Assembly: GCA_028279995.1 (NCBI GenBank)
Contig: JANQMQ010000318.1
Span: 1-6,449 of the forward strand
DNA: 6,449 bases
Source of the DNA: Candidatus Phaeomarinibacter sp.
GTDB lineage: Bacteria; Pseudomonadota; Alphaproteobacteria; CGMCC-115125
Direction of reading: 5' to 3'
This document shows, in pieces, positions 1-6,449 of this stretch. Every line of letters starts with the position of its first letter. Position 1 is the first letter of the stretch. The notes under the pieces are model-generated. The model saw only the letters and a list, made by a program, of their open reading frames with translations. It was not told the origin of the DNA and searched no databases. The position numbers and the translations under genes were made by a program.

Positions 1-62
1 CTCCCATGCTTGCCGACATGATCACTCCCGCAATGGGGACAAAGAACAGGTTCTAATACCAT
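1..62 (-). CDS. IS1-like transposase (InsA-type), N-terminal fragment cut by the window edge
   Basis: Read on the minus strand from the CAT at 60-62, an ATG opens 20 codons that run off the left edge: MVLEPVLCPHCGSDHVGKHG. The CPHC pair (residues 8 and 11), followed by a basic G-K-H-G turn, matches the first half of the zinc ribbon at the start of IS1-family InsA/transposase proteins, which normally continue with a GxQRYxC segment carrying the second Cys pair. A Shine-Dalgarno-like GAGGA (minus strand of 73-77) lies 10 bases before the ATG. In these elements the N-terminal domain binds the terminal repeats and a DDE domain follows. The call rests on 20 residues, so another zinc-ribbon transposase or a small zinc-ribbon protein remains possible. 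Whether the full gene is intact lies outside the window. Confidence 0.55.
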   Translation of the reverse strand, partial: MVLEPVLCPHCGSDHVGKHG

Positions 63-275
63 GACTGTCATTTCCTCTTGTTTAGCTTCATGTTGAAAAC
101 AATGCACAACAATTAACTCTTGGTAACGAGTCAGAAGCAAAGTATATAGAAGTTTCATATGATATTCGAGCAAAACCAAAAGCCAATAAACATAACGTCA
201 TGTTTCTGAAGATGAAATGAATGCTACCTATTCAGGGATGTCCGTATGGCATATGGAAACACTATACGTTATGCT
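63..275. other. A+T-rich intergenic stretch between two IS-related segments
   Basis: About 210 bases are clearly A+T-rich compared with the GC-rich DNA after about 297. No frame on either strand gives a convincing protein. The segment next to 62 should hold the upstream end of the IS1-like element, but the element's terminal repeat could not be recognised without its partner outside the window. An 8-base inverted pair (CATAACGT at 191-198, ACGTTATG at 266-273) is present but could be chance. The stretch may also keep part of the original upstream region of the polysaccharide operon. Confidence 0.5.
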
Positions 276-1652
276 GAGTGCCTATGCATTTTGTTAGCGG
301 GCCTTTAGACTCCGTCGCTCACGCAGAGCAAACCGAGCGCCTGCACCGATCTCGCACCTGAAAGAGCGCCATGAATCCCTTTCCCAGCTACGATGAAGAA
401 CACGAAAGGACGATGCGACTGTATTGCCGCTCGTTGCCCGAGGACCACCGTCGTCGCTATGCGGCGGTGGATGCGCTGAAGATTGGCCACGGTGGCATCG
501 CCTCCATCGCCAAGATGCTGGGCATGAGTCGGCGCACGATTGACAGCGGGATTCGCGAGTTGGAGACGATGGGCGAGGACGATCCCACGCCACCGCCGAG
601 GCGTCCCAGCGGGATGGGGCGCATCCGCCGTCGCGGCGGCGGGCGCCCCAAGGTCACCCAACGCCAGCCGGGGCTGGAGAACGCGGCCGCGTGCGTGCTC
701 GACGCGCACACCGCGGGTCGTCCGACCGATCCCGATGTCGACTGGACCCACCTCACGCCAGCGGGACTGGCCACGGCGCTGCTGGACTGGGGACATGAGG
801 TCAGCCGCCAAACGGCCGCGCGCCTGATGGACTGGGCGGGCGATCGTCGACGCGCGCTGCGGAAGGAATTGATCATTGGCCACGTCGACCCCCAGCAACG
901 CGATCAACAGTTTCAGCGCGTCGCCCAGCAGCGCCGCGAGCAACAGGCACGCGGGACTCCCGTGCTCTGCGTCGACACCAAACACAAGGAGCGTTTGGGT
1001 TTTCTGCATCGCCCAGGAACGTGCGACGGCACGGCGACACAACCGGTCTATGATCACGACGATCCGTATTTGGCCACCGGCGTGGTGGTGCCGCACGGCG
1101 TCTATGACCCTGTCGACAACATCGGCTTTCTCACGCTTGGCACCTCGCGCGAGACCAGCGCCTTCGTCTGCGATGCCATCGCCCTGGCCTGGGAGCGGCA
1201 GTTTTGCGCCCGCTATCCGAGCGCCACCGAGCTGTTCTTGACCTTCGACGCTGGCGGCGCCAATGCGGTGCGCTCGTGGCGCTTCAAGGAAGACCTGGTC
1301 GCACTCAGTCGACGCCTCGCCAGGCGCCTGCGCATCGCCCACGACCCGCCCGATACCTCGAAATGGCATCCCATCGAGCATCGCCTGTTCAGTCAGGTCG
1401 AGCGCAGCCTGCGCGGGCAGATCCTCGATACCCATGAGACGGCGCTCAAAGCGGTGCAGCGCACCACCACAGACACCGGACTGCGCGTGAGCGCTTGTAT
1501 CCTCGATCGCGTGTATGAAGTCGGGCGCAAGTGCTCCGAGACCTTTCGCGCGATCAAAGACCGGTTCATTCGCCACGATGAAACGCTCGAGGCATGGAAC
1601 TATGTCGTCGATGCCAATGGATTCTCAGGTGCATTATCCATAGAAATGCACC
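276..1652 (+). mobile_element. ISAzo13-family insertion sequence (ends approximate)
   Basis: The element is recognised from its complete ISAzo13-type transposase and from composition: DNA is A+T-rich up to about 290, strongly GC-rich to about 1620, then A+T-rich again. The ends are not firm. The right edge is placed at 1652, where a 25-bp near-palindrome closes. The left edge is placed at 276 because GAGTGC then CTATG there resembles, with gaps, the reverse complement of the right end (GGTGC, then CTATG). A second short match is CCTTTAGACTCC (301-312) against CCTGAGAATCC read from the right end. No clean terminal inverted repeat or target-site duplication could be aligned by eye. The element sits just upstream of the polysaccharide-type operon, in the same orientation. 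Confidence 0.6.
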
Positions 1653-1657
1653 ATTAG
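371..1657 (+). CDS. ISAzo13-family DDE transposase
   Basis: This 428-residue protein carries out DNA cutting and strand transfer for its IS. Residues about 15-65 form the N-terminal helix-turn-helix region (GHGGIASIAKMLGMSRRTI at 39-57). A basic, proline-rich linker follows (about 72-98). The RNase H-like catalytic core has all three acidic residues in recognisable family contexts: D202 (CVDTKHKERLGFLHRPG), D293 (TFDAGGAN) and E336 (TSKWHPIEHRLFS), with 42 residues between the last two. The C-terminal TTTDTGL and AWNY segments are also family-typical. Length is near the usual figure of about 400 or slightly above. The start at 371 keeps the expected N-terminus and has a weak purine run (GAAAGAG) just upstream. 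The last 15 or so residues after AWNYVVDA look non-conserved and are encoded by the right end of the element. No frameshift or internal stop is seen, so it may be active. Confidence 0.93.
   Translation: MNPFPSYDEEHERTMRLYCRSLPEDHRRRYAAVDALKIGHGGIASIAKMLGMSRRTIDSGIRELETMGEDDPTPPPRRPSGMGRIRRRGGGRPKVTQRQPGLENAAACVLDAHTAGRPTDPDVDWTHLTPAGLATALLDWGHEVSRQTAARLMDWAGDRRRALRKELIIGHVDPQQRDQQFQRVAQQRREQQARGTPVLCVDTKHKERLGFLHRPGTCDGTATQPVYDHDDPYLATGVVVPHGVYDPVDNIGFLTLGTSRETSAFVCDAIALAWERQFCARYPSATELFLTFDAGGANAVRSWRFKEDLVALSRRLARRLRIAHDPPDTSKWHPIEHRLFSQVERSLRGQILDTHETALKAVQRTTTDTGLRVSACILDRVYEVGRKCSETFRAIKDRFIRHDETLEAWNYVVDANGFSGALSIEMHH
1628..1652. repeat. Near-palindrome at the right end of the IS
   Basis: GGTGCATT (1628-1635) and AATGCACC (1645-1652) are perfect 8-base arms around a 9-base loop. 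They overlap the last codons of the transposase gene. No run of T follows, so it is a poor intrinsic terminator. It more likely belongs to the transposase-recognised terminal region of the element, although no good copy is seen at the left end. Confidence 0.6.
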
Positions 1658-1672
1658 TTAGTGAACATTTCC

Positions 1673-1701
1673 TTGTTGTAGGTCACCATAGCAGATTTAA
1701 A
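1673..1701 (+). promoter_or_regulatory. Weak sigma-70-like promoter candidate upstream of the operon
   Basis: TTGTTG (1673-1678) and TTTAAA (1696-1701) are 17 bases apart, with 3/6 and 4/6 matches to the -35 and -10 consensus, and lie 23 bases before the PFK-like gene start. It is the only plausible promoter in the 66 bases between the transposase stop and that gene. The matches are weak, and transcription could instead read out of the IS or come from farther upstream. Confidence 0.2.
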
Positions 1702-1723
1702 GAATCGAAACATTACCGAGCCC

Positions 1724-2935
1724 ATGTCTAACATACTCATCATGATGTCTGGCGGCACGTCACCCGTGATCAATGCCACACTAGCTGGTATTCTTACCGC
1801 GTCCGACCGTGCGCCCAGCATTGAAAAAGTCTATGCCGGATACCCTGGCTTCCAGGGCGTGCTCGAAGGCTCCTTGAAAGACCTGGCGCGACTCGACGCT
1901 GCAGACCGTGCCAGGCTCTACAGAACGCCCGGCTCCAGCGTAATCGGTACCACACGTGTCGCACCAATGGAAGACGAAACACTGGAGCGCTTTGCTGCAC
2001 AGTTAAAGACGCATGAGATTGACATGGTGATCAATATCGGCGGCAATGGAACAATTAAGCAGACGCGTGCGATGGCTCGTGCGCTCTCAGGCAGGATCCG
2101 TTTCGCGTCTTGCCCTAAGACAGTTGACAATGACCTCGGTGACCAAGATTATGCGGCAATGCTCTTTACACCAGGCTTTGCTTCCTGCGCCAACCAATGG
2201 ATCCACCATACGCGCCTGTTCGACATTGAGAACCGCGGCGCTGCTCAACACGACAAAATCCTGGTTGCTCAGACCTTTGGGCGGGAAACTGGTTTCATTA
2301 CGGGTGTGGCACGGATCGCTGACCGCAACCGTGAGCTTCCACTGCTCATTCTTCTGCCCGAGGATCAACAGCCGGTAGACGCCGTTCTGACTAAGCTTGA
2401 TGACACGCTGAGCCATCATGGCCGTGCCGTGGTCATCATGAGCGAAGGCTACAGCATGGGCGATATCGGGATCCGGCGCGACCTATCCGGCCATGTTATG
2501 TTCGGCAGCAGTAGAGGCACTAATGCCCAATTGCTTGTTGATTACTGTTCCGGCGCTGGCATGCAGGCAAGAACAGTGATTCCGACAGTCCTCCAACGAG
2601 TCTTTACCGACCGGGTCATGGAATTTGATCGGGATATCGCCTTCCAACAGGGCGTTAAAACTGTCGAGGCTCTGATGTCTGGCCAGTCCGAGTTTCTGAT
2701 GGGGCTTTATGCTGACCCGGCCATTGGTGTCGAGCCCATCCCCTATGAGACCTTCGACGATTACTCACGCAGCTTGCCACCAAGCTTCATTGCACCTGGG
2801 CAATTTGATGTGTCAGAAGAATATGTCCGCTATCTGGACAGCTTTTTTGCCTTCAGCCGTTTCGAAACCGGATATGATGAACCTGAAGGTTTGCTCGTCG
2901 CCTTGCCCGAATTAATGAATAGGAAGCCTGCATGA
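1724..2935 (+). CDS. Divergent phosphofructokinase-family protein (PPi-PFK-like)
   Basis: The 403-residue protein belongs to the PFK fold family, whose members phosphorylate fructose 6-phosphate or related sugar phosphates with ATP or pyrophosphate in the cytoplasm. Landmarks in order are: SGGTSPVINA (9-18), the phosphate-binding glycine loop; IGTTR (74-78), with R78 matching the phosphoryl-donor Arg; GGNGT (106-110); PKTVDND (131-137), with D135 as the catalytic base; FGR (185-187) in place of MGR; EG (241-242); and R283 with QR (291-292). K132 in PKT is the residue typical of pyrophosphate-using and related clades. Asn108 replaces the Mg-ATP Asp of E. coli PfkA, while Gly109 is kept. Val289 occupies the position of the fructose-6-phosphate His/Tyr, so the substrate may differ. 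The gene is first in the operon, its stop overlaps the next start by four bases, and no strong ribosome-binding site precedes it. Confidence 0.85.
   Translation: MSNILIMMSGGTSPVINATLAGILTASDRAPSIEKVYAGYPGFQGVLEGSLKDLARLDAADRARLYRTPGSSVIGTTRVAPMEDETLERFAAQLKTHEIDMVINIGGNGTIKQTRAMARALSGRIRFASCPKTVDNDLGDQDYAAMLFTPGFASCANQWIHHTRLFDIENRGAAQHDKILVAQTFGRETGFITGVARIADRNRELPLLILLPEDQQPVDAVLTKLDDTLSHHGRAVVIMSEGYSMGDIGIRRDLSGHVMFGSSRGTNAQLLVDYCSGAGMQARTVIPTVLQRVFTDRVMEFDRDIAFQQGVKTVEALMSGQSEFLMGLYADPAIGVEPIPYETFDDYSRSLPPSFIAPGQFDVSEEYVRYLDSFFAFSRFETGYDEPEGLLVALPELMNRKPA
2921..2926 (+). promoter_or_regulatory. Shine-Dalgarno for the glycosyltransferase fusion gene
   Basis: AGGAAG lies 5 bases before the ATG at 2932, inside the 3' end of the PFK-like gene. 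It supports this start and coupled translation of the two overlapping genes. Confidence 0.65.
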
Positions 2936-5097
2936 AAATTAGCATGGCAATTCTCGCCTATAACCGGCCCGATCATCTCGAACGTGTTGTGCGCGCAACC
3001 GTCGAGCAGGGCATTCGAGCCTTTACCGTCTATATTGACGGCGCCCCCAATACGGCTGTCGCCCAAAACCAGGAAAAAATCGTCTCCTTTCTAGAGTCCG
3101 TCAATCAGGCGGATATCACCATCATCCGCAGGCAGAAAAACCACGGACTGGCCTATTCCATCACCACGGCGGTCACCAGCGAGTTGGAGCGCAATGAAGC
3201 GGTAATCGTTCTTGAGGATGACTGTGTGCCTCGGTCCGGATTTTTTACCTTCATGACCGAAGCGCTCACGCGCTACCGCGACCATCCGTCGGTGCGTAGT
3301 GTGTGCGGCTATCAGTTCCCCTTTGCCATCGATGATAGTAATATTATCAGTTTGCGCGCTATACGGCGCTTTACCCCCTGGGGTTGGGCAACCTGGCGGA
3401 ACCGCTGGACCGACTATAGCAAGGACTTCAAGACGGTCGCCGACACGGTCGAACGCTATGGTATGCGACACCGCCTCACACAGGATCTCAGGGTCTACTG
3501 CAACGATCAGGCGTTCCTCTCAGGCACACAGGACATCTGGAGCTTGTCCTGGGTGATCGCGCATTATATGACAGATACCTTGTGCGTGTATCCCACCTAT
3601 CCGCTGGTGGAAAATATCGGCTTCGATGGCTCGGGCGTACACTGTATAGAGACCAGTGATTTCGATATTCCCGATCAGCTTGACGCAGTCAAAGTTGACC
3701 TGCCGGATGATGTCCAACTGGACTTCGGCTTCGATTGTCAGGTCGAGCGCTTCCTGGACGCCAATTCAGTCAAAACCATGCTCAAGGAGGCCGATGCAGA
3801 GGACGACCAGGACGTTTGGACTGACGCCATCCAACCTTTTAGCATGCGCCGATTTGGCAGCCATTCTCTGGCAATCGAAGACATCAAAGGGCTTGTCGAG
3901 GTTGCTGTTGAAGGCAGCCCGATTCTAGACATGCACACCCATCTCTTTCCGCCTCAGCATAAAGGTTTTTATTTGCAGGGGCTGGAGGCTTGCTTTAATT
4001 ACCATTATCTGGTGGCCGAAGTCCTGACCGTGACCAAGCGAGCGCCAGCAGAGTTTTACTCACTTAGCAGCCCAGAGCGTGCCCGGTTCGTTTGGGACGA
4101 GCTATTTGTCAAACGCTCACCCATGTCGGAAGCTTGCCAGGGCGTGCTAACTCTACTGTCACGGTTCCATATTTCCGGACTAGGCATGAGCTTTGACCAG
4201 ATTTCGGAAAAAGCGGACCGCGTCATCTACCAGGATAGCGCTCTTTTTGAGAGTAGCGGGGTTGAGAGCGTGGTAATGACCAACGATCCCTTTAATGCCG
4301 AGGAGTGGGCCCTCTTTGACCGCGACGACTGGGACCGCAAACGCTATCTGCCGTCCATGCGCCTCGATGTCATGTTTAACGACCCAGTTAAAGCTGCCGA
4401 AATGGCTCGTGAAGTAGGCGCCAAGGGCTCGAACGACATGGCGTGCCTCCTTGATCATCTGGAGACATGCTACGCCGCCTCAAAGCCGGTGTATAGCGCC
4501 ATTTCGCTCGATGGTTTGGCCCTCGAGACGCTCATCAAATCTGACCTATGGTTAGGCGTCCTGGATTGGCTCAAAGAGAAAGATATGCCACTCGCTCTGA
4601 TGCTGGGCGTAACCCGAGCGGTAAATCCTCACTTCGGCTTGGCAGGCGACGGTCTCGGCGCTATTGATCTGAAGGCGCTTTCTGCACTTTGCCGCACCCG
4701 GTCCGACAACCGGTTCCTGGTGACGGTTCTGTCCGCCACAGACCAGCATGCGATCAGTGTTCTCGGCCGCAAACACCAAAATCTCACTCTGTTCGGTTTC
4801 TGGTGGTTCGTCAATCAGCCCAGCCTGATTGAGTCGTTCCTCGAAATGCGGTTCGACCTTTTGGGCGAAAATTTCGTCCCTCAGCATTCGGATGCGCGAG
4901 TAACCGACCAATTGATCTATAAATGGGATCACTTCCGTGCCCTTTTGGCAAAGGTCTTAACCCGGCGTTACCAATCTTTGGCGCTGCGTGGCTGGCATGT
5001 GACCCCGCAGATCATCAGTCGGGATGTGATCCGCTTACTATATAGCCGCCCAGCGGAAGCCCTGGGCCTCGACCTCGAACCGAGGATTGTCGCGTGA
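2932..5097 (+). CDS. Bifunctional protein: GT-A glycosyltransferase fused to a uronate-isomerase-like amidohydrolase
   Basis: One uninterrupted frame encodes 721 residues with two domains. Residues about 1-280 are a GT-A glycosyltransferase: MKISMAILAYNRPDHLERV opens the nucleotide-binding fold, VLEDDC (93-98) is the metal/nucleotide-sugar acidic motif, and WGWATWRNRW (150-159) plus NIGFDGSGVH (228-237) are typical of polysaccharide-cluster transferases. Residues about 328-715 resemble uronate isomerase (UxaC) relatives in the amidohydrolase superfamily: DMHTHLF (333-339) gives the HxH pair, NYHYLVAE (356-363) matches the HY of UxaC, SEACQGVLTLL follows (399-409), then FGFWWF (621-626) and QHSDAR (651-656), where D654 and R656 align with the UxaC D-S-R motif. 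Met557 stands where UxaC has the His of QLH, so the metal site may be changed. No signal peptide or membrane helix is seen, so it is probably cytoplasmic. M305 (3844) could start a separate product but has no visible ribosome site. The sugars used are unknown. Confidence 0.85.
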   Translation: MKISMAILAYNRPDHLERVVRATVEQGIRAFTVYIDGAPNTAVAQNQEKIVSFLESVNQADITIIRRQKNHGLAYSITTAVTSELERNEAVIVLEDDCVPRSGFFTFMTEALTRYRDHPSVRSVCGYQFPFAIDDSNIISLRAIRRFTPWGWATWRNRWTDYSKDFKTVADTVERYGMRHRLTQDLRVYCNDQAFLSGTQDIWSLSWVIAHYMTDTLCVYPTYPLVENIGFDGSGVHCIETSDFDIPDQLDAVKVDLPDDVQLDFGFDCQVERFLDANSVKTMLKEADAEDDQDVWTDAIQPFSMRRFGSHSLAIEDIKGLVEVAVEGSPILDMHTHLFPPQHKGFYLQGLEACFNYHYLVAEVLTVTKRAPAEFYSLSSPERARFVWDELFVKRSPMSEACQGVLTLLSRFHISGLGMSFDQISEKADRVIYQDSALFESSGVESVVMTNDPFNAEEWALFDRDDWDRKRYLPSMRLDVMFNDPVKAAEMAREVGAKGSNDMACLLDHLETCYAASKPVYSAISLDGLALETLIKSDLWLGVLDWLKEKDMPLALMLGVTRAVNPHFGLAGDGLGAIDLKALSALCRTRSDNRFLVTVLSATDQHAISVLGRKHQNLTLFGFWWFVNQPSLIESFLEMRFDLLGENFVPQHSDARVTDQLIYKWDHFRALLAKVLTRRYQSLALRGWHVTPQIISRDVIRLLYSRPAEALGLDLEPRIVA

Positions 5098-5831
5098 TGC
5101 AATGGGTGATCCCGATGGCCGGTCTGGGAACCCGCACTTTGGCGCGTGGCCCCTTCAAGCCTTTCATCCCGGTCGCGGGCAGGCCTATTGTTGGCTGGTG
5201 CCTGACAGGCCTTGCTCCCATGATGAAATCAGGCGACCGACTAGTCACGGTCACCACCGAGGCCTTTGACCGCGACTTTGACGTGTGCAGGACTCTAGCC
5301 AAGATTGCAGTGGAGTTCTGTGATGTACTGGAGGTGATCACGCTGACTGTGCCTGACGTTCCGGCAGGTCCGGCCAATACAGTCAGCGCTACCTTTGATC
5401 ATCTAGATCGCGAGGCGCCCGTCTTCATTGTGAATTCCGACCAGCTCATCCAATTCCATCTGCCGCAGTCGCTGGAGGCGGACACCGTTTATCTGCCCGT
5501 CTATTTCAATGCTACTGGCAAATCGAGCTATGTCACCTTTGACCAAGATCACCGGGTGAACGGCATAGTGGAGAAGGAACTGCGGTCTCTTCATGCCAGC
5601 GCTGGTGTTTATGGTTTCGGAAGAGCAGACCGGCTCATGCAGGCCCTGCAGGCTGCCGGCGCAGCAGGAGGTGTCCACAAGGGTGAACTCTATTTGAGCC
5701 ATGTTGCATCGGCCCATATCTCAGCTGGAGGCATGGCACAGGCCCTACGGACCTTTATCAAATACGACCTCGGCAACGTGCCTGAAATCGAATTCTTTGA
5801 ACGCCAGGGTGCCCCTCTCCTGAAGGGCTAA
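5094..5831 (+). CDS. Sugar-phosphate nucleotidyltransferase (NTP_transferase family)
   Basis: The 245-residue cytoplasmic enzyme is expected to join a sugar 1-phosphate to an NTP, giving an NDP-sugar and pyrophosphate. The N-terminus has the family signature PMAGLGTR (7-14) followed by FKPFIPVAGRPI (21-32), with K22 as the conserved Lys. AGPANTV (91-97) is in the base-recognition region, NSDQ (114-117) carries the likely Mg-binding D116, and IVEKE (158-162) then ASAGVYGF (168-175) match the later substrate loops. Length fits single-domain RmlA-like proteins without a hexapeptide acyltransferase tail. The start could be GTG 5094 (GTGA overlap with the previous stop) or ATG 5097 (TGATG overlap). 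GAGGA at 5082-5086 is 7 bases from the GTG and 10 from the ATG, which slightly favours the GTG. The nucleotide and sugar cannot be read from the sequence. Confidence 0.85.
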   Translation: MMQWVIPMAGLGTRTLARGPFKPFIPVAGRPIVGWCLTGLAPMMKSGDRLVTVTTEAFDRDFDVCRTLAKIAVEFCDVLEVITLTVPDVPAGPANTVSATFDHLDREAPVFIVNSDQLIQFHLPQSLEADTVYLPVYFNATGKSSYVTFDQDHRVNGIVEKELRSLHASAGVYGFGRADRLMQALQAAGAAGGVHKGELYLSHVASAHISAGGMAQALRTFIKYDLGNVPEIEFFERQGAPLLKG

Positions 5832-5858
5832 CCGGAACATCGCGGAGACACCATCGGT

Positions 5859-6449
5859 ATGTGCGGAATTGCAGGCCTGATCGATCCACAAGGGTCACCG
5901 ATACTCAAAGAGCGGACCCGCACCATGCTGGATGCGATTGCGCACAGGGGGCCGGATGCCTCAGGTGTATGGGCCGAAGGCTCAGTGGCATTGGGCAGCG
6001 TGCGTCTGCAGGTGGTAGACCGATCCGCGGCCTCAAACCAGCCAATGATCAGCAACGACGGCCGTTATGTCATTGCCTATAACGGTGAGGTCTACAACTT
6101 CCGAATCCTGGCCCAGAGACACGGCATCCAACCGCGCACGTGTAGCGACACAGAAATTATCGTCGAACTCTATGCCCGGCTCGGCGAGCAAACCTTCACC
6201 GAAATCGAGGGCATGTTCGCCCTTTGCATTTATGACCGCGAACAGCGCATCAGCCTCTTGGGCCGCGACCCCTTCGGTATCAAGCCGCTTTATATCTCGC
6301 AGAGGGACAACACACTTGCTTATGCCTCAGAGATCAAGGCCATCCTGACACTCGGTGGCGATCAAGCCGAACCTGACTATAAAGCTGTTTATGACTTCCT
6401 GCGGTGGGGTGCACTGGACCATAGCGAGAAAACCTGGTTCAAGGCCATC
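5859..6449 (+). CDS. Asparagine-synthase-type glutamine amidotransferase, N-terminal part (runs off the window)
   Basis: The first 197 codons of an AsnB-like protein are present and the frame is open at the right edge. After Met removal, Cys2 of MCGIAGL is the Ntn nucleophile that releases ammonia from glutamine. Other class II glutaminase marks are HRGPD (29-33), R49-L50, YNGEVYN (74-80), SDTE (97-100), GMFA (118-121), GRDPFGIKPLY (135-145) and SEIKA (157-161). The synthetase half, which activates a carboxylate with ATP, should follow outside the window. GGAG (5844-5847) lies 11 bases before the ATG, and the 27-bp gap to the previous gene suggests the same operon. In polysaccharide clusters such proteins are often proposed to amidate uronic acids or other carboxyl groups rather than to make asparagine. 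That role is inferred here from context only. Confidence 0.92.
   Translation, partial: MCGIAGLIDPQGSPILKERTRTMLDAIAHRGPDASGVWAEGSVALGSVRLQVVDRSAASNQPMISNDGRYVIAYNGEVYNFRILAQRHGIQPRTCSDTEIIVELYARLGEQTFTEIEGMFALCIYDREQRISLLGRDPFGIKPLYISQRDNTLAYASEIKAILTLGGDQAEPDYKAVYDFLRWGALDHSEKTWFKAI

Follow-up and report, generated by a model that had tools for sequence, protein, structure and literature searches.

Among the described systems close to the locus reported here is the nucleoside diphosphate (NDP)-heptose pathway, whose enzymes we take to be the isomerase GmhA, the kinase HldE/HddA, the phosphatase GmhB and the nucleotidyltransferase HddC, and which follows the logic of isomerising, phosphorylating, (dephosphorylating), nucleotidylating and transferring a sugar. 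A comparable gene set, consisting of an isomerase, a kinase, a nucleotidyltransferase and a transferase in one locus, is found in a stretch of DNA from Candidatus Phaeomarinibacter sp. (assembly GCA_028279995.1, contig JANQMQ010000318.1, positions 1 to 6,449 of the forward strand; hereafter the window, 6,449 nucleotides in length). At its centre lies a single open reading frame (ORF) of 721 amino acids (aa) (2932..5097, + strand), in which a GT-A glycosyltransferase (GT) domain, predicted from fold and motif, is joined to a BH0493-type uronate isomerase domain. The profile of the module nucleotidyltransferase is close to the 6-deoxy-mannoheptose pathway protein 6jq8/5xhw, whereas the isomerase and the kinase belong to families other than those of the NDP-heptose pathway, namely the uronate isomerases and the phosphofructokinases (PFK). 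We tentatively propose, as a reading that may well prove wrong, that the fusion together with the adjoining kinase and nucleotidyltransferase turns a hexuronate into an activated ketouronic-acid sugar, which is attached to a surface polysaccharide.

An earlier note on this DNA had read a glycosyltransferase and a uronate-isomerase-like amidohydrolase in one frame, and both the pairing and the two domain calls were borne out. A search of 5.8 billion proteins, in which 7998 candidates were scored, returned the window's own protein and at least 61 further full-length relatives among the best 120 of 804 matches. These are 684–726 aa long and cover 94–99% of the fusion at 36–45% identity, one of them carrying the name Candidatus Pelagibacter. 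Since the same two-domain layout is kept in these 61 other proteins, the fusion is real and a frameshift or a chimeric ORF is ruled out. Many residues in both halves are invariant in an alignment of the window protein with 22 full-length relatives. The GT-A domain comprises residues 1–277 (2932..3762, + strand), with EDDC at 95–98 and PWGWATW at 149–155, and is followed by a linker of residues 278–309 (3763..3858, + strand) and by the uronate-isomerase domain of residues 310–715 (3859..5076, + strand); the lowest model confidence (predicted local distance difference test, pLDDT, < 50) falls on residues 287–311. The fusion is a new combination of known families, and no description of the fusion protein or of the gene set was found in the accessible part of the open-licence literature.

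The C-terminal half adopts the amidohydrolase TIM-barrel fold and is close to BH0493 of Bacillus halodurans (PDB 2pnk, 2q08, 3hk5, 3hka) along its whole length, so that the fold which the earlier note had expected beyond residue 320 is indeed present. Residues H335, H337, Y359, D654 and R656 of the fusion align with H26, H28, Y50, D355 and R357 of BH0493, which we take to be its metal-binding and catalytic residues, and these five positions are identical in all 67 fused (window included), all four split and all 59 standalone rows. A classical UxaC identity is ruled out by the Pfam and NCBIfam scores, as PF02614 gave no match and PRK02925 scored 21.5 bits against a cut-off of 387. An isomerase activity of the domain on a hexuronate is likely, judging from the residues it retains. 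The position beside the conserved WWF motif has changed, since the residue equivalent to BH0493 position 328 varies among the 67 fused rows (N in 43, T in 10, M in 4) and is M in 59 of 59 standalone rows. Because uronate isomerases act on free open-chain uronates, the domain would act on the sugar before activation and transfer. The earlier note had suggested that both domains act on the same glycan or precursor; a shared precursor is the likelier object, and a shared glycan the less likely one.

The N-terminal half possesses a GT-A fold with an acidic metal motif. It has this fold and the EDD metal motif in common with GnT-I and POMGnT1 (GT13) and with bacterial GT2 enzymes. Its identity to the GT13 structures 1foa and 5ggi amounts to 16–19%, and the cut-off of the Pfam GT2 model Glycos_transf_2 (PF00535; 23.3) is also missed, with 22.5 bits for the N-terminal half and 20.6 bits for the whole protein. 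We know of no fused isomerase in GnT-I/POMGnT1 or in bacterial GT2 enzymes. The GT tree is weakly supported in places and contains four long branches. Calpain matches to this half were short and were taken as chance.

A scan of the genomes of 84,980 species yielded 344 relatives, of which the best 80 loci were kept. We refer to the PFK-like kinase, the glycosyltransferase, the isomerase and the nucleotidyltransferase as the module. At least three of these four genes occur in ten of the 80 loci (L003–L012, the ten top-scoring), while the GT stands by itself in 70 of the 80 stretches; all four are present in the window and in seven of the ten (L003–L007, L010, L011). The ten loci span about six phyla, as counted from the taxon names of the records. 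The survey for fused and split versions proposed in the earlier note found both. The isomerase is fused to the GT in five loci, those of Spiribacter salilacus (L003) and four Pelagibacteraceae (L004, L005, L006 and L008, the last cut at the contig end before the kinase), split in four and absent in one. GT and isomerase are adjacent but separate in Ca. Obscuribacterium (L007, Elusimicrobiota), Gastranaerophilales (L009) and Flavobacteriaceae (L010), and Bdellovibrionales L011 has a GT–nucleotidyltransferase fusion (567 aa, L011:2612-4315), with kinase and isomerase following on the other strand. The conserved neighbourhood, the alternative fusions (GT–isomerase and GT–nucleotidyltransferase) and the adjacent split genes argue that the module enzymes probably share a pathway. 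In this respect the joint role put forward in the earlier note is partly supported; that note had drawn on the fusion without its flanking kinase and nucleotidyltransferase, the two genes that are key to the pathway reading.

Since genes for Wzz, WecA-like, export or flippase proteins lie in L003, L010 and L012 and DegT-type sugar aminotransferases in L004 and L007, the module loci look like surface-polysaccharide loci. Among the 149 ORFs of L003–L012, blastp (E 1e-5) against proteins of the catabolic loci described below found no relative of the uxuA and mannitol-dehydrogenase-family products of L175, of KduI, Gnd or LarA, and one weak short-chain dehydrogenase/reductase (SDR) match in L004 (27% identity). 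An apparent 1850-aa ORF starting with the nucleotidyltransferase (L004:12064-17616) is an artefact of an N run in the record. Near three module loci there is a family of 354–393 aa proteins (L007:4813-5877, L010:10531-11673, L012:11044-12225), of which the L007 and L012 members, when scanned, had no Pfam match at E 0.01. A GlpX-type class II fructose-bisphosphatase (375 bits; L007:5874-6857) is encoded two genes upstream of the module kinase in one locus.

In the window, the PFK-like sugar kinase (403 aa; 1724..2935, + strand) matches PF00365 with 135.4 bits (cut-off 30.9), and the stop codon of its gene overlaps the ATG of the fusion (ATGA). The module kinases belong to the same family as the pyrophosphate (PPi)-type 6-phosphofructokinases (3hno, 3k2q; PRK14072), which reach 179 and 168 bits with the module profile, and the motifs KT[VI]DND and SEG are conserved in common. 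The window kinase differs from them in that it stays below the cut-off of PRK14072 (PPi-phosphofructokinase; 192.6 vs 273) and carries GGNGT, a signature of 112 of the 120 listed PFK-like rows (window included), instead of the GGGDS of 3hno. Furthermore, the 6-phosphate pocket of the module kinase may be altered, because the alignment of the module kinases shows V, I, F or S two residues before the kept QR, at the presumed counterpart of H249 in E. coli PfkA. On the other side of the fusion, a sugar-phosphate nucleotidyltransferase-like gene (5094..5831, + strand; 245 aa from GTG 5094, or from ATG 5097) overlaps the fusion stop codon with its start and recurs in the module loci. Its profile matches 4evw (E 3.5e-16), GlmU (2.6e-7), 6jq8 (3.8e-7) and also 5xhw; the window protein by itself stays under the Pfam cut-offs.

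A lower-scoring group of kinases from five genomes (L196–L200) reaches 310–321 bits compared to 521–635 bits for the module members, a gap partly due to the model having been built on most module members; the L011 kinase, left out of the model, scores 521 bits. The L196–L200 kinases carry GGNDS and lie beside Gnd-like, LarA-like and HAD genes, with Gnd-like and LarA-like neighbours in all five fetched loci and a D-mannonate-oxidoreductase-like SDR in four of them. The NCBIfam models for KduI and 6-phosphogluconate dehydrogenase (L196) and for D-mannonate oxidoreductase (L197, L198) are passed. The LarA-like protein of L196 stays under the cut-off of a putative hexonate epimerase model (204 vs 500), and the SDR at L196:9124-9897 passed none of the 25 models shown. 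Related LarA groups are described as catalysing mannonate/gluconate epimerisation, with D-mannonate converted to D-gluconate that feeds the pentose phosphate pathway (PMC7583248). The setting of these more distant kinases, in operons that look like sugar-acid catabolism, suggests that a carboxylate is able to take the place of the 6-phosphate in this branch. The L196–L200 enzymes themselves are possibly either a PFK-fold gluconate/hexonate kinase that supplies 6-phosphogluconate dehydrogenase or simply a PPi-phosphofructokinase.

The isomerase tree was rooted with 22 general BH0493-type isomerases, comprising 21 from the 120 listed rows and BH0493. All of the module isomerases included in the tree fall, with the marine standalone ones, into a single clade (99/92), and three of the four split genes are placed near its base. 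BH0493 is a single-domain protein grouping with the 21 general relatives, whereas the window domain is fused to a GT, stands in this separate clade and comes from glycan loci. A single origin of all fusions was rejected (approximately unbiased (AU) test, p 0.001; asked after the tree was seen), the exception being P0070, and the fusions minus P0070 as one clade were not rejected (AU p 0.08); the pairing of P0070 with L010 is weak (94/37) and the placement of the long branches split_L011 and P0056 unsure. The marine standalone isomerases adjoin the domain of the window (96/87), inside the fusions. The sole standalone gene whose surroundings were examined (L175:10246-11460) has uxuA and the gene of a mannitol-dehydrogenase-family oxidoreductase within 8 kb, with apparent sugar transport genes around, a context as in glucuronate breakdown. 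The most economical interpretation has a catabolic isomerase recruited into the glycan module, fused to the GT and then returned to catabolism in one lineage, which would mean that the isomerase stayed active. This return of the marine isomerases is probable, and at most that, because the test with p 0.08 leaves a sister position possible. The L175 protein also misses the NCBIfam glucuronate isomerase model (20.8 bits vs 387), and standalone isomerase genes like it may be under-annotated.

In the pathway we propose, the C-terminal domain would interconvert free D-glucuronate/D-galacturonate and D-fructuronate/D-tagaturonate, a step for which the conserved residues speak well. The PFK-like kinase would phosphorylate the ketouronate at the primary C1 hydroxyl made by isomerisation, its pocket presumably accommodating the C6 carboxylate in place of the 6-phosphate of fructose-6-phosphate, and the nucleotidyltransferase would convert this phosphate to a nucleotide-activated sugar. 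Finally, the N-terminal GT-A domain is predicted from its fold and motif to pass the sugar or sugar phosphate to the growing glycan, and fusing the first and last enzymes would hold both in a single complex and a single unit of expression. Aldouronates lack a primary hydroxyl, while a ketouronate gains one at C1, the site which PFK phosphorylates on fructose-6-phosphate. An isomerase and a PFK-like kinase make sense in one pathway because isomerisation creates this hydroxyl. In its most specific form, with a PFK-fold ketouronate-1-kinase fed by a uronate isomerase, a nucleotide-linked ketouronic acid placed on a cell-surface glycan by the fused GT-A domain, and a catabolic enzyme recruited and later released to catabolism in marine lineages, the proposal is unlikely to hold in all its parts. 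If it is true, bacterial glycans contain fructuronic or tagaturonic acid (or a phosphodiester thereof), and a new sugar-activation pathway and an unexpected building block would exist in marine (Pelagibacter), halophilic (Spiribacter) and several uncultured lineages. A PFK-like branch that databases name glycolytic would likewise gain a testable function, and glycan synthesis would have acquired a catabolic isomerase. The module ties four protein types to one process even if the ketouronate idea is set aside, and the annotations ‘glucuronate isomerase’ and ‘6-phosphofructokinase’ may not denote catabolic genes where they occur in glycan loci.

Several observations weigh against the ketouronate pathway. 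We know of no GT-A enzyme that uses a C1 (non-anomeric) ketose nucleotide, so the fourth step would be unusual chemistry; since a C1-linked nucleotide is no ordinary donor, the last step may be a phosphate-sugar transfer, or the kinase may phosphorylate the anomeric position. Among the papers listed for ketouronic acids together with glycans, none was seen to present such an acid as part of a glycan. The kinases of L196 and L198 pass the NCBI diphosphate-fructose-6-phosphate phosphotransferase model (366 and 368 bits; cut-off 273), so that the kinase relatives in the sugar-acid operons may be ordinary PPi-phosphofructokinases and uninformative on sugar acids, and the PFK subfamily is broader than the module as seen (482 matches, including Actomonas and Pseudoalteromonas entries). 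The mannitol-dehydrogenase-family protein of L175 stays under the cut-off of every specific NCBIfam model (fructuronate reductase 198 vs 603). Neomarinimicrobiota L012 has the GT, the nucleotidyltransferase and the kinase, with the isomerase absent from its draft assembly, and L009 is without a nucleotidyltransferase within its 16.7 kb stretch. The GlpX phosphatase near the L007 kinase and HAD proteins in L010 and L012 are superfluous to a four-step scheme. We left a phosphatase out because these HAD proteins show only remote similarity to those beside the L196–L200 kinases (best blastp E 9e-8).

The donor to be expected for a GT-A domain that carries an EDD motif is an anomeric NDP-sugar, and 4evw, 6jq8/5xhw and GlmU, to which the nucleotidyltransferase profile is nearest, are presumably enzymes using anomeric sugar-1-phosphates. 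Together with the reversibility of the uronate isomerase reaction, this speaks for a salvage route in which a ketouronate is turned into D-glucuronate/D-galacturonate, phosphorylated at the anomeric position by the PFK-like kinase and converted to an ordinary NDP-uronate, from which an ordinary uronic acid is transferred. We hold such a salvage to be unlikely, though less so than the alternatives that follow: PFK-family kinases phosphorylate a primary and not an anomeric hydroxyl, and devoting four genes to the task would be uneconomical because uridine diphosphate (UDP)-glucuronate is obtainable from UDP-glucose in one step. The variation at position 328 in the fused rows, compared to the M of all standalone rows, would suit the same pathway acting on another acidic sugar, its product being acidic and neither fructuronate nor tagaturonate. 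However, the core catalytic and metal residues are all unchanged and the window domain has standalone relatives branching beside it, including one encoded near uxuA, which makes this rather unlikely. We give equally little credence to a division into two units, with the kinase and the nucleotidyltransferase forming one and the isomerase another, in which case the PFK-like protein would be either an ordinary phosphofructokinase or an enzyme for a different sugar phosphate, and the isomerase would have joined the GT for unrelated reasons. The kinase relatives that pass the PPi-phosphofructokinase model and the isomerase-free set of L012 agree with this division, but nine of the ten module loci have the isomerase, and the stretches examined around the other 70 GTs have none.

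It is improbable that the two domains are merely co-expressed, with the fusion a chance product of gene overlap where a polysaccharide locus varies, and the isomerase serving an unrelated uronate breakdown. Polysaccharide loci often shuffle genes, and read-through fusion would be easy as the genes of the module loci overlap or abut. Yet the layout is kept over the 61 listed relatives despite their divergence, a single fusion origin is rejected, the same partners recur in altered order, and catabolic-locus relatives, bar the one weak SDR match, are missing from the 149 module-locus ORFs. Most improbable of all is a catalytically dead isomerase domain kept for a structural or regulatory role beside the GT: fusions sometimes keep dead enzyme folds as scaffolds, but the presumed catalytic positions are unchanged in all 67 fused rows.

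With regard to distribution, the fusion query matched two of 59 related genomes, the window's own and one with the GT only. In its class, the two-domain profile matched 12 of 385 genomes, its own over the full length, one in the isomerase half and the rest in the GT half. The isomerase branch was found at E 1e-20 in one of 398 genomes of its phylum (its own) and in one of 345 genomes of the phylum sample around L010 (that of L010 itself). PFK-like proteins at E 1e-80 occurred in two of 247 genomes in the order of L004, both module carriers, and in 3/179, 4/178, 1/45 and 1/150 genomes of further samples. For nine of 61 fusion contigs, a PFK relative lies on an equally long contig, an indirect match drawn from the 119 listed PFK rows besides that of the window. 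A phage origin was rejected, as a viral scan (80 of 129 relatives kept) gave GT-type matches only, none past query residue 266, and so was a plasmid origin, as none of the 18 plasmid records matching the fusion covered 80% of the query. Plasmid matches to the PFK-like protein have 25–29% identity and are mostly named phosphofructokinases (20 of 49 records listed).

Upstream of the module, the window carries an ISAzo13-family transposase (371-1657; 368 bits vs a cut-off of 200), which ends 66 bases upstream of the PFK-like start codon. Neither terminal inverted repeats of at least 14 bases nor a near match among plasmids were found for it, and its GC content is 0.64–0.67 compared to 0.53–0.57 from 1601 on. 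Downstream, the start of an asparagine-synthase-like amidotransferase gene (5859..6449, + strand; GATase_6, 126 bits) is cut by the contig end, and such a gene also directly follows the nucleotidyltransferase in L005, L006 and L008.

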